Source: Bryum argenteum (Eukaryota > Streptophyta > Bryopsida > Bryales > Bryaceae). From it: a stretch of DNA of 64,000 bases. The notes under the pieces are model-generated. The model did not search any database, was not told the DNA's origin, and saw only the letters and a list, made by a program, of their open reading frames with translations. This document shows positions 1,419-62,148 of this stretch, piece after piece; the first letter of the stretch is position 1, and each line of letters opens with the position of its first letter. The position numbers and the translations under genes were made by a program. The stretch covers positions 7,794,727-7,858,726 of the forward strand of contig CM073327.1 of the NCBI GenBank assembly GCA_037043015.1, in the 5' to 3' direction.

Positions 1419-1435
1419 TTAACCCTTAAACGCCC

Positions 1436-1458
1436 AAGGTGACCCGAGGGGTCACCTT
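1436..1458. other. Subterminal hairpin of the 11.3-kb element
   Basis: Perfect 10-bp stem (AAGGTGACCC / GGGTCACCTT) with a GAG loop, starting 13 bp inside the terminus. The related MITEs have a hairpin at the same place with a different stem (60694-60710 and 847-857), so the fold rather than the sequence appears to be kept. It may be a transposase-binding or end-recognition structure; that role is inferred. Confidence 0.6.
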
Positions 1459-1950
1459 CCAACAGAATCTTCTATGTAGCTCTCACTGTACTCAACTTTT
1501 CTCTTATATTAACACAGAATTAGGAATTTTTGCACTTGGGGGTAGAATCATGCACTTGCAAATGGATGGTTCAAAAAATCACATTTAGTGAAATTAGGTG
1601 TACCATTTCATCCTTGAATGTCGTATCCTATTTTAATATCAAAATTCTAAAGAAACATTCATTTCTGGTAATTATTGAACCTCATGATTGGATGCAATGT
1701 ATCTTGAAAATTTTCATGTGTAGCATTCATTTCCCAGAGTTTAGACTCCTTCAAGTGGTATAAATGGCCAAGTTATCCAAAACTTTATCGCATCTTTGTA
1801 ACAAAAAAGACATATAATGTATAAGAAATATAATACTTCTAAAACTCCTTTAGTTAGCAACCATAATTTATGATTACCACTAAAATAAACTTACACTGCT
1901 AAAAGTACACAGTCTCTTCTCTAAATATTTATTTCTCCCTAATCTCTATA

Positions 1951-4900
1951 CTAATAACGGTCTATATCATTTTGAAGGCGTTCGTTATCTATGTATTCAA
2001 CTTGCATTGCAATGTATGCTAGAAGGTGTGGTTTTGCAAAAGTTGGAATTTTGATGTTTCGCTCCGTTGAAACACCGTGTATTGGAATACAAAGTTGTTG
2101 CGGTTCTTTGGTTCTTGCATGTTGTGTTTCATCCACCCATGAATAAATCGATGCTTCTTTCTCCACCCATCCATGTCTTTCACCCGATGGCTCCCACTTT
2201 GACTCCATGCAATTCGAATACCGTTGTCTATCAAGAACCGATGATATTTCTTGGGATCCCCTCCATTGCGGCCAGTACCACACTACTTTCATTTTTGTTG
2301 CCCACCTTCCATGACCAAATTCCAAAACTTTTCCAATATAAAACGGTACACACCGCTTGAACTTCCGTGGGATCCACCGTCAGTAGCTACAAAGTGTCCA
2401 ACCTTCACATCATCATCCGGACAAAAATGGGTAAACGGAGCTTCTCCGTTCTGCAGTGTAATTAGTACATGCGACTCTAGTATTGAAGTTCTACGTCTTG
2501 TTGGTGCTCTTGTCGCAGCTCTCTCTTCGATGGTCTCTCCCTCTACGAGGACCAAAATATTGCCTTCGCTCGATCGTGGCATTGTTCTCATTATAAGATC
2601 CACCGTGCTCGTGTCCAACGTTCCATCTTGATTTTCGATAGAAGTTGCGGTGCATTTACGGTTGCTCTGTTTGGGCTTTGATTGTCTTACGGCCAAAAAG
2701 GGGCATTTGTTGCCGTGCTCCTATCTTGTTCGGAAAGTGTTCCAAATAATCGCCAACCACTTTGCTTGATCAATGGCTTCCAAGTTCTTCTCCACGTTTT
2801 GGAATCGTTCTACACACTTCTCCTTGTAGGCCACAAAATCTTCTAATGCCCTTAGTTCCCTTGCATCATTTTAAATACCTCGGCTAGCATTGGCTTCGCG
2901 GCTCTAGTAGGCATTGATCTCAAACATGGATGCCCATCCGCTGGAACCCAAGCATCTTTACGAAAAAGTCTTAGATCATCTCGAGGCATTCCACCCACCA
3001 TGTAAAATCGCATGTGATGTGGGAACGTTATGCCGATCAAAGTATCGCCACCTCTGAGCAAATGAGGAGTGATGAAAGACTTCCAATCCCTCACATTCTC
3101 TAAATGCCTCGCACTCACATACGCTTCGGTATACGAGGTTCCTCTCTCGACTAGTGATAGTAACTCCTTCATAGAATCAATGTCGCTCCTCTTTAACGTA
3201 TTTGAAATGGTACTAAAACGTTGGTCTATATCTTCGTGTGTGTGCCCAACCAATAGAAAACATAGCCCCACCTCTTGAAAAAACCCCATACCCACTAGTG
3301 CAGCACACAAGGCGAACATGTATATGTTCTTGTTCTCCCGCGTCGTATTATCCGCTTGAATTCGTAAAGTTGGTGGCAACATTCCTTTCCTTCTCTTCAC
3401 ATCCGTAATAACATGCATCAACGAGGTAACAACTTGATTGCTATCGTGCTTGTGGTGTGCATCGAGCCATACATCTGCATAGAGGCCAATCCCGTGCACA
3501 AGCACTCCGCATAGGTGTGTCTTCACGAACCGCCATTCATTCAATGTTTTTCACTGTTTGCTTCATCTTTGGCACCATTGTTGTATTTTGGTCCATCCCA
3601 TCTACGATTATGCTCATGAAAAGATCTGGAGTTATGATAGCTGACCTTTTGAAAATCCAATAATCTCGACGCTCTTCCATTTGACGGTTAATGTGTACCA
3701 AAAACAATTTTTTGATTTCTGCCTTGGCCGCCTCATTCGTTGTGGATTCCATGCCACATTTGTACTCCCAGCAATGAAAGCACTTTGAAAACCTTGAGAA
3801 TGGTGGAATTTGCACGTGGGGAAAGTCACCCTCCACATTTTGTGAAACGAACTTATTGATATTGGATGTCCATCAACTAGCTTCTTCACCTCCTCATTCA
3901 CATAATGAAAGACATCAGTTTTTGTCGTATTCATTGGCAATAGTATCAACGGCAATATTGCATCGTCTGATCTTCTCTTCACTTGTCGATGCGGTTGGGT
4001 ACACCCCACTTCATTGACAAACACCGCAAAACTTTCTCGTGCTGCAGATATCTTCCCTTGCTCCTTCTGCTTACCATTATTCCCATGTACGCCAACTACC
4101 TTTCCATACAGTGATCGTGCTTGCTTGAGTTGTTTGAAACGCCTTTGGGAGTATCCTAATGCTCGAGCATAGCATGCGTTGCATACACGATGACCATCAA
4201 GCTTGGTGTCAAACTTTTCCTTCCGTTTGGTATTTGTTCGTGTGTAAAATGAATTCAAGATTTGCATGATCCATGTAGCTCTGCTCTCATACTTTTGTGC
4301 CCATGCCATGTACCGATTGTCCAAAATTACTCTCTCGTTCACATGCTTCAAACAATTTAATGTACAACCTCCTGTGACCTTTCTTTGCCCGTGACGCTTT
4401 CAATTGTTACTTTTGTTTTGCGCGATTCCCCCTTCTCCGTACTCTTGTTGGTCGACTCCTCCGGTTTTGCATCGAATATTTTCTCCGAGGTCTACCTTCC
4501 ACCAAATCCTTCCACTTCAAATACACCTCCAACACTAGATTGTGACTCCGGTGTCACTGGTAATGATCGTTCCCCGACACTGCTGCCCACTAGGTTGCTT
4601 TCAGACATCCGAATCGGCATTCCATGATTAACTTCATCGTCGAAATCAAACGCAGATGTTCCCACATTTTGAAACGTAAATGATTGCCTTTCCTCTAAAC
4701 CAATGTTTCTCTGTGGCAATCCACATTTTTTTCGCAAGTTTGACGCCTTCCAACGAATGACCAAACCTACACATTGTTCAAGGCGTTCTCCAACAACTTC
4801 ACCAACCCAAAGTGAACCTTGAAAGACTTCCGTTACACACACTGCAACCTCGTCCGGGGTTAATTTCAAATAATGTAATTCCATCCCTAGTTTGTAGGTT

Positions 4901-5118
4901 TGATCTACGAATCCTTGCCCTACCAATACGTCGTCCTCTATAAGAAGCTCTACAACTCCATCTGGCGTACTCAAGTTCCGTTGCTCTCCAAGAGTTTGTC
5001 TGTCAAAGTCTGTTGCAAGACTACGTACAAGTCTTCTACCCACCGTATTTGTTCTTGTTGTGGGAGGTGCTACATTTTGATACCCAACAACCGGACTTCC
5101 AAAACCCAAATTCTCCAT
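1951..5118 (-). pseudogene. DUF7869-type transposon protein, broken
   Basis: Reading 5118 to 1951 on the minus strand, homologous protein segments follow one another in shifting frames. The 5118-4492 segment (starts MENLGFGSPV, acidic) ends at a TAG near 4484. The 4351-3840 segment has CNACYARALGYSQRRFKQL, which resembles the conserved Cys-containing N-terminal region of DUF7869 proteins. The 3836-3537 segment has FSRFSKCFHCWEYKCG, a Cys-pair motif. The 3544-2852 segment has IQADNTTRENKN and LVGHTHEDIDQRF, the family hallmarks, with candidate acidic residues D65, E70, D105 and D107 of that segment. A C-terminal tail continues in pieces to 1951. At least four frameshifts and two stops break the gene. 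DUF7869 proteins are widespread uncharacterised proteins; an RNase-H-like/transposase role is an inference from these acidic and His motifs and from the element context. The gene is divergent from the plus-strand gene of the same element. Confidence 0.7.
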
Positions 5119-6527
5119 CTTTATCTACCAACAAGAAACCCACAAACACTATGTCATTCATAATGTGAAGCTTAGAAATCTCAAGGTAAGCATTGTTTTT
5201 CAAACTCTACTAATAATGTCCAAATCATCAGGTTCACTTGATTTTGAACCACAAATTGATGTAATACCTATGAGATCCTAGTTGGACACTTTGGATGACA
5301 AGCTCAAATTCATTAAGAGACCAAAACTTATTGATAGCATTCAATATTGGGAGATTTGGATTAGGTTGAACTCCGAATCACGTGTAGGTTTTTTGCTACA
5401 AGTTACAAAGTTGAAGAAGACCATATGAACGTATAGCATGCAATATATGAAGGTAGCTCTATTTTGAGAGACTTAAAACGTGAGGTATATTTTACAACTC
5501 GAAGCCAATTAAATTCCAAATACCCGATAAGGGTGTTACACATGCCACAATCTTTAAAAATAAAACTAGTAAATTTTGTATAGTGTATGACATACACTCT
5601 ATATGTCTCGCATATGGAAATGTCATTATGTCGTAAGAGACAAAATTACATATTTGTCAAGATCTTTGATTCTAAGCATAAATTATTATTAGTATAATAT
5701 GTGCATGCCCCTTGTACCTCAAAGCTTGTAATCACGTATGGAAATTTATAAAGAAAACTACTAGAACACTACTAGGGATTTGCAAGGTTTTTTGGAAATG
5801 TTGTCCAAGCAAAACAACATCTTGGTACTTGCTCTAGCAATTTTTCCAATTTTAAATACTTAAAATAGTAAACAAAGTTTTTCATCAATATAATAACTTT
5901 ACTTATTTTTGTAGGAACATTACTAAAGCAAGACCTAGGACATTCCTTTACTTGCGTAGCGTTTGACAAAAAAACGTAGAGAATCCCCTTTTAATTTTTG
6001 GTAATGTAAAAATGTATATTTTGGTTTGATAATACAAATGAGAGTAGATTATAATACGAGGTTGTCTACATGATTTTAATTCACTATAAAATGTCATATT
6101 TATGGAAATTCTATTTTATTTCTAAAAAAATTGAAAATCGTCGAAGGTGCTATTAATATAGTGCTACCGGCGCTCCCAAAAAATTTCAAGTCAATATCAT
6201 CAAATTTGAGTAAATTAGAGCCATACAGACTTGGGAATCTCACAACACAAAAGTAAACTAAAATTTGAAATAAACGGTTGCTTGAAATATTTTATGAGAA
6301 TACTACATGCATGTTATTTATCCATACTAAATAACATGAAGATGCAACTTCCCAATGCAAATATTAGAGCAAACCATAGAAAGTAATAGAAAATAGAAAA
6401 GGAAAAGAAAAGAACAAAAACTAGAAAAAAATCAAAATAAAAAATCAAATAAAAATAAGAAAACAAGATCAATTACTAAACAGAAATGAAAAAAAAAATT
6501 TAAAAAAAAATAAAAAAAAATAAAAAA
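5119..6527. other. Upstream spacer inside the 11.3-kb element
   Basis: AT-rich non-coding sequence between the minus-strand DUF7869-type gene and the GC-rich centre. It contains A-rich tracts near 6370-6530 and no open frame worth calling. It presumably holds the 5' leader and promoter of the minus-strand gene, but I see no clear TATA box for it. Confidence 0.4.
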
Positions 6528-6780
6528 AAACCTGCCGCCCTGCGGCAGCGCAGACCTCCGCACGCGCGGAGGGGTGCTGGCCGGCAGCAGGCAGGCTGCC
6601 GCAGCAGCTGGTCGGCAACAGCTGGCTGGCTGCCTTGCCGCAACAGCTGGCCGGCAGCAGGCTGGCTGGCTGCCTTGCCGCCTGGCTGCCGGGCAGGCTG
6701 GCTGCCTAGCCGCCGCCCGCCGGGGCAGGCTAGCCGCCGCCTAGCCGCCGCCCGCCCGGGCAAGCTAGCAGGCATGGGGA
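6528..6780. repeat. GC-rich imperfect repeat block at the centre of the 11.3-kb element
   Basis: About 250 bp of very high G+C in otherwise AT-rich DNA. It is built from permutations of GGCTGCC, GCCGGCAGCAGG, GCTGGCTGCCTTGCCG and TAGCCGCCGCC. Inverted motifs (GCCGCCCTGCGGC, CCGCACGCGCGG) allow folding. It sits directly upstream of a TATA box, between the two divergent genes, so a promoter or insulating role is plausible. The apparent 100-residue reading frame on the minus strand here is a composition artefact. Confidence 0.7.
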
Positions 6781-6843
6781 GGGTATAAGTACCCCTCCCC
6801 ACATTTTATTTTCATCAGTTGAAAATTTGCAAATACCTTGGAG
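6781..6843 (+). promoter_or_regulatory. TATA box, leader exon and splice donor for the plus-strand gene
   Basis: TATAAG at 6784-6789 lies between inverted GC blocks (GGGGAGGG before, CCCCTCCCC after), so the TATA box sits in the loop of a potential hairpin. A short leader follows and ends at GGAG|GTGAGA (donor at 6844), a good plant donor. The gene's coding segments resume ~1.1 kb downstream. Transcription start and splicing are inferred. Confidence 0.5.
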
Positions 6844-7926
6844 GTGAGATTTTTTTGAAACAACAAGAACTAACCACCATTTCAACCTTTTATACCAAAC
6901 AAATTAGGGTTTCATGATTAAGAATCTAAATTTTACATGTTTTTTCAAGTTCATGTAAGTTTTCTTTTACAATGTTAGGGTTTCATTGCAAATTAATGTT
7001 TTTGTAATTTTAGGGTTTTGTATTTTATTTTATTTTTTTGGTTGTTTCATTGTTTTTTGTGTTTATATAAATTTTTCATGAGATACTAGGGTTTCATTGC
7101 AAATTTATTTTGGAGCTTTAAGAATTTCCATAGTTTGATTTTTTTTAAATTTTTTTTTTTCTTTTTTCTTTTTTTTTCTCTTCTTCCATATTGTTGTGGT
7201 TTTATAGATTTTTGTGGTTTATTTTGGAATTTTAGGATTTTATTGCAATGCTTTTATGTGGTTATGAGATTTTGTGTCGTTTGTAGTTTTTGGACTTTTT
7301 GCTATTTTTGTAGTTTTTCTTTTTTAGCAATTTTAGAATTTCATTTCAAGAATATTTTCAAGTTCTAGGTTTTTTGTTTGATTGTGGGTTTTTGTGGTTT
7401 TGGTATTAATTGTTGTATTTTGAGCTTTGAAGTTTCTTTCAAGTTTTAAATTTTCTATTAAATTAAAGCTTTATGTAACTCATGACTTTCATTGCAAAAT
7501 CATTCTTTGAATTTACTTGTGATGGTTTGTAGCCTTGAGGTTTTTTGTAATTTGTGGATTTTTGTGGGTATAGATCTTTTTTAGAGTTTTTTTAGTTTTG
7601 ATATTTGATTTTCCAAAACCTACAGAAAAATTCAGTCAACTCAAAAGTTATATGTGTTTGTGAAATCATTATTTCTTACAACATTGTTAAATTCTATCTT
7701 TCAAACTTCTAGAAAATAAACAAATAAAATTACTTTTACAAAAACCAATGTAAAAGTACAAACTTTTATTTTTTTTCATTTTACCCACTTTTAAAATAAT
7801 AAATATTTATAAATATATTACATTGATAAATGTAAATTATCACATGATAATTTAGTACTTAAGAACTTTATTTTTTATATATATACTGATTATCGTTTGT
7901 TTATTAGATATATCTACACAAAGAAA
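6844..7926 (+). other. Probable T-rich leader intron with telo-box-like repeats
   Basis: A strongly T-rich, G-poor plus strand, as expected for a plant intron, between the putative donor at 6844 and the first coding segment near 7927. The phrase TAGGGTTTCATTGCAAAT recurs near 6977 and 7089, with related copies near 6905 and 7012. TTAGGGTTT is the inverse of the plant telo-box AAACCCTAA, an element known from leaders of growth-related genes. I could not fix the acceptor. Confidence 0.45.
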
Positions 7927-10900
7927 CATGACACCTCAAAGTCAATGGAGTGAAGCGGGTGGATGATATTGGCTCCAAACAAGGACCAAGCTCGATTATG
8001 GATTTGGACTACCCGTTGGTACGTGGTCAGGAGATTTGTGCAATCGGCAAGGACGTCGGGCAAATTGAGAAAATTGTAGCGATTCCAGAGGGGTTGGTTC
8101 AAGTGAAAGTCCGAACTCGTGCACATGTAGTGACCCTATACAAGATTGAGAAGGGGAATATGCTGGCAAAAATTCCTAACTTGTTGTTTGAAGCTGCAAA
8201 ACCGCTCCGAACATTGCGCTCTTTAGCATCATTTTGGAAAGGTTTGACTGAAGACGTGAGAATGGAACGTACTGTTGCCATTGTGAAAGCTAGGCAGTGC
8301 AATCCTGAGGAGATATTGGAACTGAGAAATCAGTATATTCAGCAAAGAAGGGATTTAATCGAAAGCGGCAAAGACGACCTAACGTGGCAGATTTCGTGAG
8401 TGTCGGAGCAGAAGATCACATGGACCTCACACTAGTCCTGATCGATCGTATGCAGATGTGGTTAGTAATAGAGTAAGGAATGATATTCTATCACAACCAG
8501 GGCATGTCACACATCCAATGCTACAAACAGAGCCGGTAGAGGCACCTTCTTCACAAACACAACCTCCAAGTGCCACGAGACCAACACCAACACGTATACT
8601 ACAGAAGTGGGTCCGTCTTCTAGCGTGAGGAGGGCAAGAAGTGCGGACGTGCTTCTACTCAAAGTCCAAAGATCAACATCACGTGTGCCAAATGTTGCGG
8701 TATCGAGGGGAAAACAATTCAAGTGGAGGAGGAATATCACGAGGACGACCAAAAGTTCAAAAGCAGTGACATAGTGGAGCTCCAATTACATGCCAGTTCG
8801 AGCGCTCATAATATTACTACTCCTACGAGTATTAATATTTCAAGGAGTCAAGTAAAGACTAGCTACATCGATAGCACCAACTCGGGACCGGCGGCAAATC
8901 AACTAGAGGACGTGGAAGACGATCACCCACATCAAGAGCTCCACAAACTCAAACACCTTCGCTAGAAGGCAAGCACGTGTTGTACAACAAAACACAATAC
9001 TAACAAACTCCCGAGGAGCGGAGAAAGAGGGGCGGGGATCGAAGATTTGGACAACCCTTCTTCCGATGAGGAAGAACCAAGAGAAGTGGAGAAAAGTACT
9101 AAAGGCCCTCTGATTGCATTCCCAACAGAGGAGGAATTTAAAGTGGATATGTGTGGGGATGGAGGCGGTGTTTAAGATTCGCACGGAGAATGTACGGCGT
9201 GCGATAAGTCAAAACCAACCATCGGGCATTGTCAAAGAAGCGTATGGCTGAGATATATGAACGTCTACGGGGAGATGATGAGGACCTCGTGTCCCCCATT
9301 ACACTTCGGCCAGTTGCATTTCTTGAAAAGAGAGTGGATGGTGATGACAATATAGTAGAAAAAGAGGTTCCATTCAGGAAGGAGGATACAGTGGACCATT
9401 TCAAAACCGTATTTGAGAAGTATCAAAGGCAACAAGACAATACAATGGGCATTTTAAAGACGGAATGGTTACGAAATGCAATAATATAGGAACCGGTGGA
9501 TGGGCAACACATTATAGAAGCATGCAAGTTTGCAAAACAACAATTGGCGGCCCAAAGACTCTCTCAAGAAGAATATGCAAGTATATTTGCAGAACGGGCA
9601 GCAAAATTTGTTGTATACAACAACCCTCAGTTTTACATTGAGGCCTCTGTGCGGATCAATGCAAAAGCGATTTTAGAGAAAATTTTACATGTCACTCTGA
9701 AGACCAATTGGTGAAGCTCGGGTAGATCTCGGAGTCTTGTAGGAAACCCAATGCGGAGGTGAGCTCACGACGCCAACCGGGCCAAAGCAGCAATAGCTAT
9801 GGCGGCTAGTCTGTTGCATCTTAGCGTCTGATGACTTCTTCACGGAGCCTTTGGGACTAGTGGCAAAACGGATGTTGGATTGGACTAGGCGTGCGTGGAA
9901 CGAGAATGAAGAATGCTACAAAGCTATTTTGGAGGTGTCTGAAGACTACGAAGATGGTTGTTTATGGTATAGTAAAGCGGATGAGAAAAAGTGGAAGAAG
10001 TATCTAAGGAGAAGGGGTTGGATAGTACGAGGATCTAAGACCAAAAAGACCAAAGATGGAGAAAACATGGTTGAGGCCTTTAACAAGGGTACCACCTGAG
10101 GAGTACCTACAATTGGCTAAGGAGATGGTAGCTAAACCTATTGTAAATGGAAAGAGGAATTCCCGGAGTTCTATTTCAATAGGGCTCATAGGGGTTGTAT
10201 GGAAAAAAAACAAACTCTCGAATGGATAGTAGATCGACTACAACGTCGACGCGCAGTTCAAAATGCATTGCGGTGGTTGATAGTATCTAAAGGAATGGAG
10301 CACCCAACATCCATGGAAGATTTTTACAACATAGATGTTGTGCGATGCAGTGGAGAGAAAGGCAAGAGGCGGTTTCAAGCGCTTGCGGAGGAAATAGACA
10401 AAGACATGAAGAATACTTGGTCAATGCCATCCGTGAAAACCGTGGGGAGTTTGGTTAAATTTGGAGAGAAAATCAACGCCCATGTGAAACAACATTTCGA
10501 AGACGTGAATGTTGGTGGTAGAGGTTCGAAGGTTTGGGAATAAGAGGGAGATCAAGAGGAAATTTCCGATGGGATTGGAGAGTTGATGTCAAGCAAGGAG
10601 ATGAAGACCATAGTGTGAAACGATTCCAATCGGAGGCGATTCAGGATTCTTTAGTGATGAATACCATGAAATGCAAATGCCTTGTTTGTGGGTATTCGAT
10701 TGTCGAAGGGGAGTATGGATGGCGGGACAAAGCTTGGACAAGAGGAGAATACAAAAGCGTCTTCGTAAGGTGCGAAAGTGGATGAGTAAGATTTTAAGGT
10801 GGACTATAGTCTTTTTATTTCCACCAGAGAAACCTATGGCGACGAGATGCGATGATGTTACTGGGTGACATAGAAGGAATGACGTGCGTGAGAGGGATTT

Positions 10901-12142
10901 GGGCGTTCCAATCGGACAACCGTTAAAGATTACAAAAAAGAATTTTAGGGAGGCGCGGGGTTAGACGCAAAGTCAAGCGCTTGGAAATATTGTAGTGTTG
11001 ATGGAACACCCGTTGATACAGAGAGCTATCAAGAATTTGCCAAGAAAAAGATGTACTCCCAACCCTTTTTCTGGACTCTTGGACAGCTGGAAGGGTGCCT
11101 TCAAGCGTTGACAAGCTAGAGAGAGATCCTATGGAATTGCGTAGACTTGTTCAATCGTATTTGCATCCTAAATGGACGTTGGTGGCAATTGGGATTACGA
11201 CATCCATTCCGGAGATACTGACAGGTGGATTCGAAGGGCAACAAATTTTTGTCTTCGATCAATCTCAAGCCCGAACAACATTTTTGTACAATACCCTAGT
11301 ACAAGAATTCAAGGGCTTCATGAGACAATCACCACCACAAAATTTGGCAGACGTAGCAGGACCTTCAACAGTACATGCGCAGAGGATCATCGAAGATGAA
11401 ATTGAAGAGGGAGATGAAAGAGATTACGAAGAAGAATCAAGAAGAAAGAAAGGTTCATTACAACCGATGAAGATGATAGTGATGATCATGTTTCCGATGA
11501 TTCTCGACGTGAGTCGAGAATCTTTGGAGCCATTGGAGAGAAGACGGAAGACGGTTGTACAATCGGCAATAGTAGATGATGATACCCAACCAAGAACAAC
11601 GAACGCATCGAGGATGAGGACGGCGAGTACCAATGATGGAGGGGCGGAAGAAACTCGAGACCACACTGATGCGGTACCTAGAAGTCGGTTGGTAGAGGAG
11701 GGTATTATTGAGAAAGTCATGGTAATAGTCCAATTCATAGAGCGCATCAAGAACCGGTTCTGAGGATTTACCGCTACCAAAGAGAGAGACAACGTCTTCG
11801 CAATCACCTTTTGAATGGGCAAACACCGAGCACGCAATGATCCTGGGAATGAGGGTTTCTACTTCAATCCGGAGGGTGAGGTTTCGCCGCATTGGTGAAG
11901 AAGGCAACCATACTTTTGTGGAGGCATCGTCTATTTTGGAGGAAAATTCGGGGTTGGAACGAGTGCCATCCGGGTGATAGATGCTATGGTGGCGGAAGGG
12001 GCAATGGATTATGCGGACCCCTCGATTCCATGGGAGATGCGGCCACGTGAAGGGCGAGGAGTTACACCTGTCATCAGAGAGGAGCAACCGCAATCTGAAA
12101 GTGTCGAGTTAATAGCGGAAACTCCTCCAGACTTGCATTGAT
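7927..12142 (+). pseudogene. Unrecognised second gene of the 11.3-kb element, broken
   Basis: Successive protein-like segments on the plus strand, interrupted by stops and frameshifts: 7950-8399 (149 residues, with PLVRGQEICAIGKDVG), 9229-9489 then an in-frame TAG and 9496-9714 (with PVDGQHIIEACKFAKQQL and YIEASVRINAK), 9851-10099, 10199-10543, 10534-10868, 11095-11763 (with HPKWTLVAIGITTSIPEI, then a Glu/Arg/Ser-rich tail) and a short tail to ~12142. Codon use is even and the segments keep order, so this is probably one large protein of more than 1,000 residues. The DGQH phrase recalls the DGQHR/ParB-like motif, but that is only a faint resemblance. I do not recognise the family. Its position in the same element as the DUF7869-type gene suggests an accessory or co-transposase protein (inference). 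No intact start was found: the ATG at 7928 and the long frame at 7950 are out of register. Confidence 0.5.
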
Positions 12143-12775
12143 AGGTTTTAATATATTTGGATGGTGTCAAATATATATTTGATTTGTGACCTGAAAGCAT
12201 GTAATGTTTTTTTTGGAGTAAAGTAATGAAAGCTTTCTTTCGTCATGAATGTATTTGAGTTTGAAATCGCAATAATTGCATGTTCTCATATGAACGATTC
12301 TTACCAAAATGTTGATAAAATTTCATGAGCGTTTTAAAAATTCTTGTATAAAAGTTTTGCTTGCTGCAATGACATTTATTAAGTGTACGTTGTCATGACG
12401 AAGATAGGATACCTACATTGATACTGGTTTGGTATACCAATTTGAAAAAATTAGGGATTTTGGTCAAAACCGATTGCAAATGTACATTGCACTTCTTGGG
12501 TGCAAAATTAACGAATTCGGTGTTTATTTTGATGTCAAACTGGTCACCTTCTTGTGATGCATTCAAAAAGTGAAATTTTACAATTCAAATCACAATTTGT
12601 ATGAGTGATTTTGTGCTTTGAAAGGATTGTGGTAGCGAGGTTGGGGTGGTACATAACCTTGGAGGAGGTTGCAAGCTCATCATTGATTGGTGCATTCATG
12701 ATGCCCAAGTCCAAAAGATGCTGTGATCCATTTTTGGGCTGCCCGTTTCACACCCCATGGGCGTTTAAGGGTGAA

Positions 12776-20373: not shown

Positions 20374-20644
20374 ACAATCTACAAACTAAATGAGTCTATA
20401 ATATGATAGTAACAATCTACAAACTAAATGAGTTTATAATATGATAGTGAAGGCTTGGTCCAAAATGAGAATCTACAAACTTTAGATGAGTTTACTATAT
20501 GATAGTGAAGGCTTGGTCCGAAATAACAATCTACAAACTTTAGATGAGTCTATAATATGATAGTGAAGGCTTGGTCCAAAATAAGAATCTACAAACTTTA
20601 GATGGAACTATAATATGATAGTGAAGGCTTGGTCCGAAATAAGT
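20374..20644. repeat. Tandem repeat, ~58-bp unit, about five copies
   Basis: Units of the form AATCTACAAACTTTAGATGAG...TATAATATGATAGTGAAGGCTTGGTCCGAAATA. The first unit is short and the last is altered. The array is followed by unique AT-rich DNA with no gene up to 21460. Confidence 0.8.
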
Positions 20645-21472
20645 ATCGTTTCCAATTATTGCAAGATCCCCTGTGTCTTGCACTTTTGAAACCATGTTGA
20701 ATCCCGAGGGTAAACCTTACTTCAAAAGTGAATATAGGTTATAACTAAGTATACTACTACCTTCATTGCCTCCCATATGACGGCTACCATTATTTTGCAC
20801 CACCCAAGTACATTTGATTCTTATTTCATCTCTTGAAACAATGAATTTAATTAAAAACACAACTTCATGCTTGGTAGTTTCCATAATATTCTGGAACAAG
20901 GAAAGGTCATGATAAAAAGAACTTCTTAAGAAGAAGAAAGCATCCATTACCTACTACATAAGGTTTGCAAATTTCAACTGTGTTGACTCCAAGTAAGGTT
21001 CATCACTTGCCTCTCTTAGAAGGTCTCGTACAACAGTCAATGTTTGTAAAAGGCAAGAATAAAACTAGCATGTGTTGACAAACAAGAATGTTGAAGGGAG
21101 AGTCTCACAACTCTAACCATTCCAAGCATTCTTGACAAACAATTTAAGGTTACTAGAAACAGTGTTGGACTAGAAACCATGCAATAGACCAATTATCTCA
21201 TTGGGAAGACATTAGTCATTAACTTCACCCTGGAATGCATATCACATCTTGATCCGTTTAAAGAACACCTATAACATTACCTTCCAAACTAAATAAAGAT
21301 ACTCATTGAAATTAATTCAATAATTTAAAAAAAGTTGCTGAAAATTTGGTTTTCTTTATCAATGCTCTTCCACAAAGATAGAAAATTCTCCCAAAAAATA
21401 TTTATGTACCAACACCATGAGAAACTTGTCCAACTAAAATTTGTTCAAATTTTAAGCTTGTTACCTTATTAA

Positions 21473-31055: not shown

Positions 31056-32570
31056 TCAATTAAAACGCAAAAATCCACAAGAAGTTTTTGCTTTTTTAGT
31101 TTACTTTTTACTTTTTACTTTTTTTAAGTTTTGTTTTTTGAGCATGTAGAAGAGGTACCAAGCCATGATCTCACTGTTTGGATTCCCAATCCAATAATTC
31201 TTCACATGCCTTTTCTATCGTCAAAGACCAGCCTTTGTATTTGAATCTTAACCCCTAACTTTCCTTGAAGCCCGAAATGGGCTTTTGCAATTCCGGGCAG
31301 CCTAGATGAAGGGGTTAGAAGTAATATTTTTGCCTAAGAATTTTATGGGGTCCTCCTTATACAGCAAAGTGTACGTGGTAAAATTTGCAAAGTCAAATTC
31401 CAATTTTTGAGTCTTCTAGGACGATCCTTGGGTTGCGAGCCGAGATGGGGCAGCTCAAAAAAGTAACTTTTTTGAATTTTTTTTTTGAAACATGATCATT
31501 ACTAAATCACTACTCAAATTTCAAAGTGACTCAAGTCGAATTATTTTGGAGGCTGCCCTTGTAAAATTGGTAAACTTTTTGACTTGAGTCACTTTGAAAT
31601 TTGAGTAGTGATTTAGTAATGATCATGTTTCAAAAAAAAATATTCAAAAAAGTTACTTTTTTGAGCTGCCCCATCTCGGCTCGCAACCCAAGGATCGTCC
31701 TAGAAGACTCAAAAATTGGAATTTGACTTTGCAAATTTTACCACGTACACTTTGCTGTATAAGGAGGACCCCATAAAATTCTTAGGCAAAAATATTACTT
31801 CTAACCCCTTCATCTAGGCTGCCCGGAATTGCAAAAGCCCATTTCGGGCTTCAAGGAAAGTTAAGGGTTAACATACCTTCATGTGAAAACTGAAAAGTCA
31901 AGCTTTTCTCTAAGCTTTATAGGTCCTATGAGAGTAAATATGTAAATTTTATGTAAATTATGAAAATATGTACCTAACGCACTTAGAAACAAGAATTTGA
32001 AAAGACTCATTTAGAATCATTTTTTGGAATTGGTTTTTTGCTCACAAAACACCTAGGTCCCTATTGCAACAAGGTGAGAATAATTTATTTTTTTCAACCT
32101 TGAATGTTATGATCTTACAAACGGTGAGGAATTTGAGCCTAAGATTTGGTATACATGTACACAAACAAGTTACTTACAAGATCCTAAGGTTAAATACTTC
32201 ATAACTTAGAAATTAGTCAAAGATTGAAATTTTGCATGGAAAGAAGGCAGTTTTGAGGGTTTTTGGCAGTTTTGAGGCCTCTCTCCTTCAGCGATTAAAT
32301 TTCGGAGGCTTCTTCGAGGAGTAGTGTTGTGGATAATTTGGTTCACTAGAAAGTCTCCACTTTTCGAGGGAGCTCATTGGGCAACATGTATTACTATTGC
32401 AAGCCAATATTGTGAAATCCAATTTACTTTTTATGAATTATTTTTTGCAGAAGTCTATTCTAAATGTGAAATCCAACAACCTTGTAGTTGGAAGACTTTC
32501 ATTTGAATATTTTAGGTAGTGGATTCATATTTTAGGTAGTGGCTTTTGATGAAACTTTAATTTCATCCAA
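31056..32570. repeat. Dispersed repeat R2, copy 2 (interrupted)
   Basis: Colinear with 13080-13632: TTTTTTAAGTTTTG, CATGATCTCACTGTTTGGATTC, TTCTTCACATGCC, CCTTTGTATTTGAA, then the B5 fold-back insertion, then ACATACCTTCATGTGAA and the AAGATTTGG...TTACAAGATCC region. Also carries B4 (30472) in its left part. Non-coding. Confidence 0.55.
31252..31867. mobile_element. TTAA element family B, copy B5: near-perfect 616-bp fold-back
   Basis: TTAA flanks at 31248-31251 and 31868-31871. The left arm (31252-31537) is the near-exact inverse of the right arm (31581-31867), with a 43-bp spacer that contains GGAGGCTGCCCTTGTAAAATT. Differences are limited to a few bases and one indel in the A/T run. Each arm carries the terminal hairpin AAGCCC-GAAAT-GGGCTT (31268-31284 and its mirror). 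The uninterrupted target is seen in R2 copies near 13236 and 58073. A transcript would fold into a ~285-bp duplex, a possible siRNA source (inference). Confidence 0.85.
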
Positions 32571-39055: not shown

Positions 39056-40640
39056 GTGAGTAGGGATGTGGATTTTATGGAAGATATGGCCATAAATCAA
39101 GAGGAGGATATTGAAGAAACCTCACCATTTGATATTTTTCTATCTACTAATGAGACGAATGAGATGACTAAAGGGAAAGTAGTGGAAGAAGAAATTGTCC
39201 AAGATGGTGATGTTGAGTGTAGAGACAATCAGGTGATTGATGGCTTTGAAGAAGATAATCGAATCGAGGAAGATCATGGCGAAGATCTACTTAATGAAGA
39301 GGAGGATCATCCTAATACAGAATCCTAATACAAGTAAGAAGAGGAAGTAGGGTAAGAGATCCTTCTCGGCGATTTCTTGAGTCAATAATTCTATTGGAGA
39401 ACATGAACCTTTGTCGTTAAAAGAGGCCCTAACAAGACCAGATGGTGATAAATGGAAGGAAGCCATTAAGATGGAATACAATTCATTAATGGACAAGAAA
39501 ACATGGGATTTGGTACCACTACCTAAGGATAGACAACCACTGGGTTGTAAATGGGTATTTAAAATCAAAAGAAAAGCAGATGGATCATTGGATAAGTATA
39601 AAGCGAGATTAGTGGCTAAAGGATATGATCAAATTGAAGGCTTGGATTATAATGAGACTTTTTCACCTGTGGTTAGAATGGCTACGATGAGATTATTATT
39701 TGCAGTATCGGCAATTTTAGATTTGGAACTTCAACAAATGGATGTGAAAACGGCATTTCTAAATGGAGGTTTGGATGAAGTGATCTATATGAAGCAACCG
39801 CAAGGGTATATCTGCAAGGAGAGGGAAAATATGGTATGTCTACTCAACAAAGCAATTTATGGTTTGAAGCAATCTCCTCAAATGTGGAATGAAAATATCA
39901 AGTCCTTTTTATCCAAATTGGGATTCACTAGGAGTATTAAGGACAATGGACTATATATTCTACAAAAGGGAGGAGCATTTTTGTGGTTGGCGTTATACAT
40001 TGATGATTGCTTCTTATTTAGCAATGACATCGAACTTTTAAAAAAGGTAAAATTGGCTTTATCCAACAAATATGACATGATGGACATGGGTGATCTCTCT
40101 TCTGGACTTAATTTATATGTCACAAGGGATAGAGACAGGGAGGTGTTGACATTGAGTCAGGTAAAGTACATACAAAGAAACTACAACAATTCAGTATGGG
40201 TTACGCAAAACCTATGTCTACGCCGTTGGAGGTAAATTGCAGATTAGATTGTGGGAAAGACATTTCACAAGAGGAGGAAGAAATAATCAAGACAATTCCA
40301 TATAAATCTGCAGTGGGAGCATTGATGTATTTGGCTATTACGTCTCGGCCCAATATATCCTATGCGGTTAGCATGGTGGCACAATATAGCTCTAAGCCTT
40401 GTGAAAGCCATTGGTCATGTGTTAAACGAATTTTTTAGATACCTTAATGGTACAATCAACGATGGTCTAATCTATGAAGGAAATACAAGCTTAGAGGTGG
40501 CTGGATTTTATGAGGTGGTTGGATTTTGCGATGCAAACTGGGTGGGAGATCCGATCAAAAGAAAGTCAAGAAGTTGTTAAGTTTTCATTTTAGGCAATCG
40601 ACCTATTACATGGAATAGCGTCAAACGGATGTGTATTGTA
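39056..40640 (+). pseudogene. Copia reverse transcriptase and RNase H portion, frameshifted
   Basis: Continuation of the polyprotein in several frames. 39056-39328 is the acidic integrase-RT linker and ends at a small duplication (TCCTAATACA twice) and stop. 39411-40235 holds the RT (WDLVPLPKDRQPLGCKWVFK, then QQMDVKTAFLNG with the first catalytic Asp, and LALYIDDCFLFS with the YxDD box). 40196-40438 continues after a frameshift (AVGALMYLAITSRPNISYAV). 40362-40580 begins RNase H (GFCDANWVGDPIKRKS) and stops. The conserved core residues are intact, so damage is mostly small indels. The element cannot make its own RT without frame suppression. Confidence 0.85.
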
Positions 40641-40655
40641 CAATCGTACAATCAA

Positions 40656-40945
40656 GTGCGGAGGTATAATACTATGGCACGGGTGCGGAAGTATAATACT
40701 ATAATACTATGGCACGAGTGCGGAAGTATAATACTATAATACTATAATACTATGGCAAGGGTGCAAAAGTATAATACTATGGCACGAGTGCGGAAGTATA
40801 ATACTATGGCACGAGTGCGGAAGTATAATATTATGGCACGAGTGCGGAAGTATAATACTATGGCACGGGTGCGGAAGTATAATACTATGGCACGGGTGCG
40901 GAAGTATAATACTATGGCATGGGACGAATCAAGTGCGGAAGCATA
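40656..40945 (+). repeat. 27-bp minisatellite grown out of the RNase H coding motif
   Basis: About nine to ten units of GTGCGGAAGTATAATACTATGGCACGA. Two units (40683 and 40718) are expanded by ATAATACT copies. The flanks AATCAAGTGCGGAGGTATAATACTATG (left) and ATCAAGTGCGGAAGCATAATAGTATGC (right) match degraded codons for the copia RNase H motif SSAEAEYY, so the array arose by duplicating that motif. It reads as a repeated nonapeptide (MARVRKYNT), but this is not a gene. Confidence 0.85.
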
Positions 40946-60363: not shown

Positions 60364-60725
60364 CCCTTAAACGTCTAGCTATACGGATTGGGGCAGCCCA
60401 AAATTGGATCACAACATCTTTTGGACTTGGGCATCATGAATAGTGCACTTTTTGAACTTGGGCATCATGAATGATCCAATCAATGATTAGCTTGCAACCT
60501 CCTACAAGGTCATGTACAACCCCAACCTACCTACCACAATCCTTTCAAAGCACAAAATCACTCATACAAATTGTGATTTGAATTCTAGAATTTCACATTT
60601 TGAATGCATCACAAGAAGGTGACTAGTTTGACATCAAAATAAAAGTGAAAAGCTGAGTACATTGAGAGCTACAGAGAAGATTCTGTTGGAATCGGCCCCC
60701 TCGGGGCCGCTCATACGTTTAAGGG
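60364..60725. mobile_element. TTAA-flanked MITE (family A, copy A3)
   Basis: 362 bp with perfect TTAA on both sides (60360-60363, 60726-60729), ends CCCTTAAACGT and ACGTTTAAGGG. Left ~250 bp equals the inverted right end of the 11.3-kb element, and the last ~90 bp equals its inverted left end. Two 31-bp subterminal units (TTGGGCATCATGAATAGTGC). Hairpin CGGCCCC-CTC-GGGGCCG at 60694-60710. Confidence 0.85.
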
Positions 60726-61661: not shown

Positions 61662-62144
61662 CCCTTAAACGCCTAGCTATACGGATTTGGGCAGCCCAGT
61701 ACTAGATCACAACATCTTTTGCACTTGGGCATCATGAATAGTGCACTTTTTGAACTTAGGCATCATGAATAGTGCACTTTTTGAACTTGGGCATCATGAA
61801 TAGTGCACTTTTTTGAACTTGGGCATCATGATTAGTGCACTTTTTGAACTTGGGCATCATGAATAGTGCACTTTTTGAACTTGGGCATCATGAATGATCC
61901 AATCAATGATTAGCTTGCAACCTCCTACAAGGTTATGTACAACCCCAACCTACCTACCACAATCCTTTCAAAGCACAAAATCACTCATACAAATTGTGAT
62001 TTGAATTCTAAAATTCCACTTTTTGAATGCATCACAAGAAGGTGACCAGCTTGACATCAAAATATGAGTGAAAAAATGAGTACATTGAGAGCTACAGAGG
62101 AGATTCTATTGGAATCGAGAGGGGGCCGCTCAGTTGTTTAAGGG
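61662..62144. mobile_element. TTAA-flanked MITE (family A, copy A4) with amplified subterminal repeats
   Basis: 483 bp, flanked by TCAA (61658-61661) and TTAA (62145-62148), ends CCCTTAAACGCC and GTTGTTTAAGGG. Same build as A3 but with six tandem 31-bp units (TTGGGCATCATGAATAGTGC plus ACTTTTTGAAC) at about 61717-61900, where A3 and A1 have two. It sits in the same local repeat (CACCAAGRCTACMMSAATTTTCAT) that B1 entered. Confidence 0.85.
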
Positions 62145-62148
62145 TTAA

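Follow-up and report, generated by a model that had tools for sequence, protein, structure and literature searches.

We analysed a 64,000-nucleotide stretch of the genome of the moss Bryum argenteum (GenBank assembly GCA_037043015.1, contig CM073327.1, positions 7,794,727 to 7,858,726 of the forward strand; here called the window), in which an 11-kb element with two divergent genes lies inside a much shorter element. The genome encodes a LEAFY C-terminal domain, as expected of land plants and their close kin. At a rough probability of three in four, we consider the inner element (window positions 1511–12524) to be a decayed copy of a cut-and-paste DNA transposon whose DUF7869 protein would be a transposase of the DDD (three-aspartate) type, whose second protein would be a dead partner with a methyltransferase fold, and which is nested in a miniature inverted-repeat transposable element (MITE). 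The features that delimit the two elements are these.

1419..1422, no strand: TTAA target-site copy to the left of the host MITE, read from the sequence
1423..1510, plus strand: left part of the host MITE, of piggyBac type, with its CCCTTAAACGCCC end and including the TATT at 1507–1510
1507..1510, no strand: left copy of the target-site duplication TATT, which is present also in the uninterrupted MITE (TTTATTTTGATG)
1511..12524, no strand: two-gene DNA transposon, 11,014 bp, AACACAGAATTA...GAATTCGGTGTT
1511..1560, plus strand: left terminus AACACAGAATTAGG, with subterminal GCACTT repeats at offsets 21 and 41
12499..12524, minus strand: right terminus, reading inward AACACCGAATTCGTTAATTTTGCACC
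12525..12528, no strand: right copy of the target-site duplication TATT
12529..12771, plus strand: right part of the host MITE, ending in GGGCGTTTAAGGG
12772..12775, no strand: TGAA, the right flank of the host MITE
60364..60725, minus strand: uninterrupted relative of the host MITE
61662..62148, minus strand: another uninterrupted MITE related to the host, with an approximate end

The boundaries of the two-gene element come from comparison among its copies. Window positions 1503–12524 align to a second copy (C4:6034500–6047500) as one 11.2-kb match at 91% identity that excludes both outer ends, and within 3 mismatches the 13-base core of the outer repeats occurs nowhere in the 13 kb of that locus. 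Taken as 1511–12524, the element has AACAC...GTGTT ends and is flanked on both sides by TATT; copy e1 is flanked on both sides by ATTA. When ten further copies were fetched at both predicted ends, 18 of the 20 ends were found, 17 of them reading AACAC inward and one AATAC, and all eight of the fetched copies with both ends carried an exact 4-bp duplication (CTTT, ACAA, TTCT, AATA, AAAA, TATA, TGTG and ATTG). Altogether 12 same-family copies were examined and both ends could be read in 10; the 4-bp duplication was exact in 10/10 and never TTAA, with A or T at 34 of the 40 duplicated bases. A 6- or 8-bp duplication, read from the first copies, was replaced by 4 bp after the ten further copies had been added. 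A CACTA-like identity, suggested by the CAC in the ends, was rejected on the AACAC ends and the 4-bp duplication, CACTA/EnSpm elements having CACTA ends and a duplication of 2–3 bp.

Searching the genome with the exact ends gave 48 left and 40 right ends, which formed 30 pairs (pairing was on exact matches only and left 18 left and 10 right ends single). Nineteen of the paired elements measure 10.8–12.0 kb, eight 3.8–6.0 kb and three 17–25 kb; judged by length, the short ones would be deletion derivatives and the long ones probably contain nested insertions. Other DUF7869 families have AACAC as well: at 16 of the 30 DUF7869 loci, those viewed by eye, it stands in every case at or near the point where homology on the 3' side breaks off; at one of them, L032, only two bases lie outside the AACAC. 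Copy e2, which lies on C5 and belongs to a different family, has a perfect inverted repeat of 28 bases that also starts with AACAC. In three copies the terminal 600 bases contain 3, 3 and 6 occurrences of GCACTT, a motif chosen by eye, where the middles of these copies would predict about 0.2.

The outer ends have a separate history. An earlier note on this DNA had seen perfect 14-bp terminal inverted repeats (TIRs) with TTAA/TGAA flanks, and these are present (1423–1436 and 12758–12771, with TTAA at 1419–1422 and TGAA at 12772–12775). Its observation that three short elements of the window have these outer ends in common, inverted in order, also holds (60364–60725, 61662–about 62148 and one near 525). 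It had also taken TTAA as the target of the two-gene element, CCCTTAAACGCCC as its termini and the MITEs as linked to it, so that its bounds would be the outer TIRs; here the evidence goes the other way, since homology to the second copy is limited to 1503–12524 and the duplications are 4-bp and non-TTAA. Because the copy-to-copy match omits the outer ends and the rejoined MITE runs through the junction, 1423–12771 is a piggyBac-type MITE of about 0.33 kb split by an 11.0-kb insertion, and the outer TIRs are therefore not the two-gene element's own. In an uninterrupted MITE adjoining copy e2, which is an empty site for the two-gene insertion, a single run matches window 1419–1510 and 12525–12614 with an overlap of exactly 4 bases. 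When the outer parts are rejoined, the resulting 331-bp sequence aligns free of gaps across the junction to the relatives at 60364 and 61662 and to loci L004/L005 and L007/L008. A single gap suffices for L001 and for the copy near 525, while L003 takes many (32).

The 13-base core of the outer TIR has 1866 forward and 1828 reverse exact copies in the 258.8-Mb genome, far above chance when set against the 2 and 0 copies of its reversed control, and among the first 100 places listed many are inverted pairs a few hundred bases apart, that is, MITEs. The CCCTTAAACGCCC ends thus number thousands, many in MITE-like pairs too short to hold DUF7869, and the DUF7869 element at C4:6034500–6047500 lacks these termini; both results that the earlier note had named as refuting its reading are thereby observed. 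A 5.2-kb element at C1:23339978–23345168 carries the 13-mer at each end, is flanked left and right by TTAA, and encodes a DDE_Tnp_1_7 (piggyBac-type) match in an open frame of 897 amino acids (aa); beyond the 13-mer it shares with the window MITE only short likenesses, of 36 and 29 bases at about 80%. The TTAA sites, the TIRs and the MITEs are therefore piggyBac matters, and the genome holds a large piggyBac-type population (at least 116 DDE_Tnp_1_7 matches, 116 of 775 candidates having been scored). TTAA directly precedes seven of the 12 13-mers in the partly overlapping loci L001–L008, and does not precede the other five. The host MITE itself has the TTAA flank and the CCC termini of the piggyBac-coding element; the TGAA on its right is probably a mutated second TTAA copy. 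The likeness to piggyBac in termini and TTAA sites accordingly belongs to the host MITE and not to the two-gene element, which has no TTAA duplication and, in the pieces scanned, no DDE_Tnp_1_7 match. That 1423–12771 is instead one TTAA-target transposon, with CCCTTAAACGCCC as its own ends and the MITEs as its deletion derivatives, would account for the perfect TIR, the TTAA on the left and the MITEs that have both ends in common. We nonetheless hold it to be very improbable, given where the copy homology stops (1503/12524), the second copy without the 13-mer, the duplications, the continuity of the rejoined MITE, and a TTAA/13-mer element that encodes a piggyBac protein instead.

The two-gene element contains, as the earlier note had described, a broken DUF7869 gene and a broken gene of no recognized family that face away from a GC-rich centre. 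The former lies on the minus and the latter on the plus strand, and the centre is probably a two-way promoter region.

1948..5118, minus strand: transposase-like gene (DUF7869), several broken frames
2999..3544, minus strand: DUF7869 domain (PF25273, 3e-51)
3600..3602, minus strand: first conserved Asp (IIVDGMDQ)
3350..3352, minus strand: second conserved Asp (QADN)
3224..3226, minus strand: third conserved Asp, the last D of HEDID
6530..6790, no strand: GC-rich (75%) centre between the divergent genes
7932..12141, plus strand: second gene, several broken frames, putative pseudo-methyltransferase, start approximate
10680..10712, plus strand: degenerate catalytic motif IV, reading PCLWVFDCRRG without the DPPY of active enzymes, placed by eye
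11116..11259, plus strand: degenerate region of motif X/I, for binding S-adenosylmethionine (LERDPMELRRL...QQIFVFD), placed by eye

The pairing of these genes extends well beyond the window. PF25273 matches lie at no fewer than 151 places in the genome (at least; 150 of 1811 candidates scored) and in none of 14 control genomes, and a piece of the second protein as query gave at least 148 matches (150 of 178 candidates scored). We based the linkage count on 150 of the 151 DUF7869 matches and 136 of the 148 second-gene matches, 12 overlapping or split pieces at one place being left out. A DUF7869 match lies within 25 kb of 75 of the 136 second-gene places, in divergent orientation at 71 of these 75, whereas 500 trials of random placement averaged 3.9 such places, with 12 as the highest value. 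The pairing extends to relatives of the second protein only about 30–38% identical to the query, and the partner adjoins 68 of the first 90 DUF7869 matches. Both genes are open in copy e2 on C5 (1125 and 1402 aa), and the DUF7869 frame of copy e1 is open over 1055 aa. The co-occurrence for which the earlier note had proposed to look is thus found at those 75 places, with both genes intact in the C5 copy; its picture of a DUF7869 transposase in a two-protein element survives as to the two proteins and probably as to the transposase, and fails as to the TTAA link.

A codon comparison of 13 hand-chosen pairs suggests purifying selection on both genes. The ratio of nonsynonymous to synonymous substitution rates (dN/dS) was 0.06 and 0.09 in two DUF7869 pairs of moderate dS, and 0.21–0.27 in six of the eight pairs for the second gene. 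The alignments comprise 33 of 38 stretches (A1), 31 of 35 stretches (A2) and eight chosen rows (A3).

Several observations bear on DUF7869 as the probable transposase. In eight chosen rows, one of them a second-class row at 31% identity, D9, D91, D131 and D133 are invariant (8/8), and a relative at 26% identity on a contig from a metagenome-assembled genome (MAG) has HTHNKLD as its last motif, which by eye keeps D133 but not D131. The earlier note had missed the first conserved Asp, which lies in another frame at about 3602. In the AlphaFold model of DUF7869, D308 lies on strand 302–309 and D390 on strand 384–390, there is a further strand at 416–422, and helix 429–443 carries E429, D430 and D432; by our reading, this order would place D308, D390 and E429/D430/D432 as in an RNase H core. 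A Foldseek search with the model gave no significant match; its top ten are eight Argonaute and two Mos1 chains (E 0.087–0.31), both of which have RNase-H-like domains. DUF7869 is probably a DDD transposase, Sola-like in the length of its duplication.

Could DUF7869 be a passenger, mobilized by the second gene product or by an enzyme acting in trans? Such an arrangement would suit the weak fold match and the second gene's place as the usual neighbour of the better-scoring DUF7869 matches, and we only infer the activity of DUF7869. It seems to us quite unlikely all the same, because DUF7869 looks the more conserved protein by the dN/dS values above (two usable pairs), because its Asp residues are invariant even in the distant class, because it also occurs without a detectable second gene, and because the predicted fold of the second protein is that of a methyltransferase and not of a nuclease.

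Some distant DUF7869 relatives were seen along the way. Locus L105 (C1:10457500–10467499) encodes a second-class DUF7869 protein of 980 aa (5727–8666, plus strand), with no TIR and no detectable methyltransferase-fold partner in the 10 kb around the gene. The sole other frame of at least 150 aa in those 10 kb, of 164 aa (9015–9506, minus strand; HIDFAENY...SDGCSSHF), looks to us like a different transposase type. A 963-aa DUF7869 protein like that of L105 (L106, 547–3438, plus strand) comes from a contig catalogued with a cyanobacterial MAG and is probably plant contamination, and a 1249-aa frame (L107, 826–4575, plus strand), in which a motif like that of OTU (ovarian tumour) proteases was seen by eye at the N-terminus ahead of a DUF7869 relative, comes from a contig assigned to a Shimia MAG and is probably eukaryotic contamination. 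The DUF7869 relatives on the two MAG contigs were used solely to see which last acid is kept. A DUF7869 search of viral contigs led nowhere.

The second gene of the window falls in no family above cut-off, and the best Pfam value for its protein, the sole one under 0.001, is that of Mpp10 (1.8e-4, 20.9 of 29.9 bits, residues 443–567 of the 755-aa e1 frame). Its predicted fold is more informative. A search of the PDB gave 47 chains at E ≤ 0.001, every one a DNA amino-methyltransferase or a chain of METTL3–METTL14 or MTA1c, led by M.RsrI at 6.6e-6 and with many chains from the same entries; these proteins have the permuted beta-type order in common. The viral models of BFVD gave 21 matches at E ≤ 0.001, of which the 14 named are 13 DNA methylases and one ParB/Sulfiredoxin (each fold search gave 50 rows, every row at E ≤ 0.001 being among them). 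At the place of the catalytic DPPY, however, DCR stands in 23 of the 27 rows with residues there and DPP in none, and of the other four one has DYRRG, one has NCRRG, one is shifted in frame and one is cut; the 27 rows are mostly close copies of one family, with about nine from others. By eye, the motif I glycines are absent as well. Given dN/dS of 0.21–0.27 and the missing DPPY, the second protein therefore appears to be kept by selection despite the loss of its catalytic motif.

Two other views of this protein deserve comment. One is that it still works as a DNA aminomethyltransferase, whether through an unorthodox active site or in company with a host MT-A70-type partner. METTL3–METTL14 and MTA1c, whose chains are among its fold matches, are complexes with one inactive subunit, and so lend this some colour; with DCR in place of DPPY and the motif I glycines gone, we still regard it as unlikely. 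The other, that it is a faster-evolving anti-silencing factor which reads the element's repeats, is one of the two roles we allow it in our preferred reading and seems to us a fair way short of even odds. Here the likeness is to VANDAL21 of Arabidopsis and its VANC protein, VANDALs being Mutator-like plant transposons with a conserved transposase, a faster-evolving partner and repeated binding motifs. The second protein appears to change more quickly than the transposase, and GCACTT is concentrated at the element's ends as given above; VANC binds short tandem-repeat motifs and is far less conserved than the transposase it accompanies (PMC5735166). Against this, the DUF1985/DUF287 domains of VANC (PMC5735166) were not found in the second protein by Pfam scans, and the contrast in dN/dS is one between few usable pairs.

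In the nested-transposon reading that we prefer, the DUF7869 transposase would bind the AACAC ends together with the subterminal GCACTT repeats, excise the element and join it to staggered 4-bp sites, mostly of A/T; the window copy would have inserted in this way at a TATT inside an older piggyBac-type TTAA MITE. The second protein, conserved, catalytically dead and of amino-methyltransferase fold, would most likely be a DNA-binding partner that either takes part in transposition or protects the element against silencing. More speculatively, and in our view rather doubtfully, a whole lineage of plant DNA transposons may long have carried a dead DNA aminomethyltransferase that recognizes the element's own ends by their sequence. 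It might serve as an epigenetic shield or decoy, perhaps paired with a host MT-A70-type enzyme, and so let the element escape silencing, as a transposon-borne counterpart of pseudoenzymes of the METTL14/MTA9 type.

A number of observations weigh against the nested-transposon reading and are collected here. The right end was not found in two of the ten fetched copies, one of the 18 ends found is AATAC, and the flanks of copy e2 (TTTT/TTTA) are alike at three of four bases. Sixty-one of the 136 second-gene places have no listed DUF7869 match within 25 kb, which the scoring of 150 of 1811 DUF7869 candidates could explain. The second gene lies near just six of the 60 lower-scoring DUF7869 matches, mostly of the second class (profile positions about 54–192), and the partner is therefore either not universal or too distant for the query. 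The DUF7869 model is of low confidence (mean predicted local distance difference test, pLDDT, 55; predicted template modelling score, pTM, 0.42), Foldseek against the PDB gave it no match at E ≤ 0.001, and unrelated folds appear further down its list. Among the five DUF7869 codon pairs, two have dS near 3 (dN/dS 0.03, unreliable) and one is saturated, and two very young second-gene pairs gave dN/dS of 1.0 and 0.6. For the second protein, searches by sequence in Pfam and the PDB give no match above cut-off (PDB sequence searches with either protein gave nothing better than E 0.13), the TM-scores to methyltransferases are modest (0.21–0.32 by query and 0.34–0.64 by target, ranks 1–47), and the model has a mean pLDDT of 56, fair to good only over about 261–477 and poor within that at 341–360.

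Among known systems, compared by description, the two-gene element may be closest to Sola (Sola1/Sola2), which it fits in its 4-bp target duplications and, if DUF7869 is a DDD transposase, in its DDD pattern; Sola also allows short TIRs. Sola elements, with 4-bp duplications and a DDD transposase, have been reported in the moss Physcomitrella (PMC10741241, PMC9033089), and amoebozoan Sola2 has AT-rich 4-bp target duplications (PMC3627910). The same length of duplication is seen in 10/10 of our same-family copies with both ends read, and at three of four bases in e2 of the other family. A methyltransferase-fold partner is, however, unmentioned in the extracts of these Sola descriptions (PMC10741241, PMC9033089, PMC3627910). 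Kolobok (Kol0 with KolX) is likewise a two-protein DNA transposon, with 5'-RR/YY-3' termini, but it duplicates TTAA, which the two-gene element does not, and KolX has a cytoplasmic ballast fold rather than a methyltransferase fold (PMC9587614). The second protein resembles M.RsrI, CcrM and N4CMT (beta-class N6-adenine/N4-cytosine enzymes), METTL14 and MTA1/MTA9 in predicted fold and strand order, and differs from the beta class in lacking the catalytic DPPY (mostly DCR) and in having no match at the level of sequence. Mariner elements in virus genomes are also DNA transposons with a methyltransferase-related gene (PMC3627910), but have another transposase superfamily, other methyltransferase classes and an endonuclease gene besides. 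Beyond these Mariners, as described in extracts of that article, we recognized nothing as this system among transposons with methyltransferase genes in the open-licence literature, and DUF7869 went unnamed in the open-licence literature searched.

If the proposed functions hold, a domain of unknown function that is numerous in a plant genome gains a probable role as a transposase, together with its ends and its target-site rule. The partner would represent a new type of cargo for a transposon, namely a protein of methyltransferase fold that selection apparently maintains after loss of its catalytic motif, in a kingdom where DNA methylation controls transposons. The case also shows how, through a nested insertion, an element can be credited with ends and a superfamily that are not its own.

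An Rfam scan of the window gave nothing at gathering scores. Elsewhere in the window there are a minisatellite with a 27-bp period (40611–40931), a tandem repeat in which a 107-nt stretch occurs three times, at steps of 58 nt (20425–20647), and a 242-nt inverted repeat (31245–31486 and 31633–31874) whose arms are 99% complementary and separated by 146 nt, which is perhaps a young foldback element.

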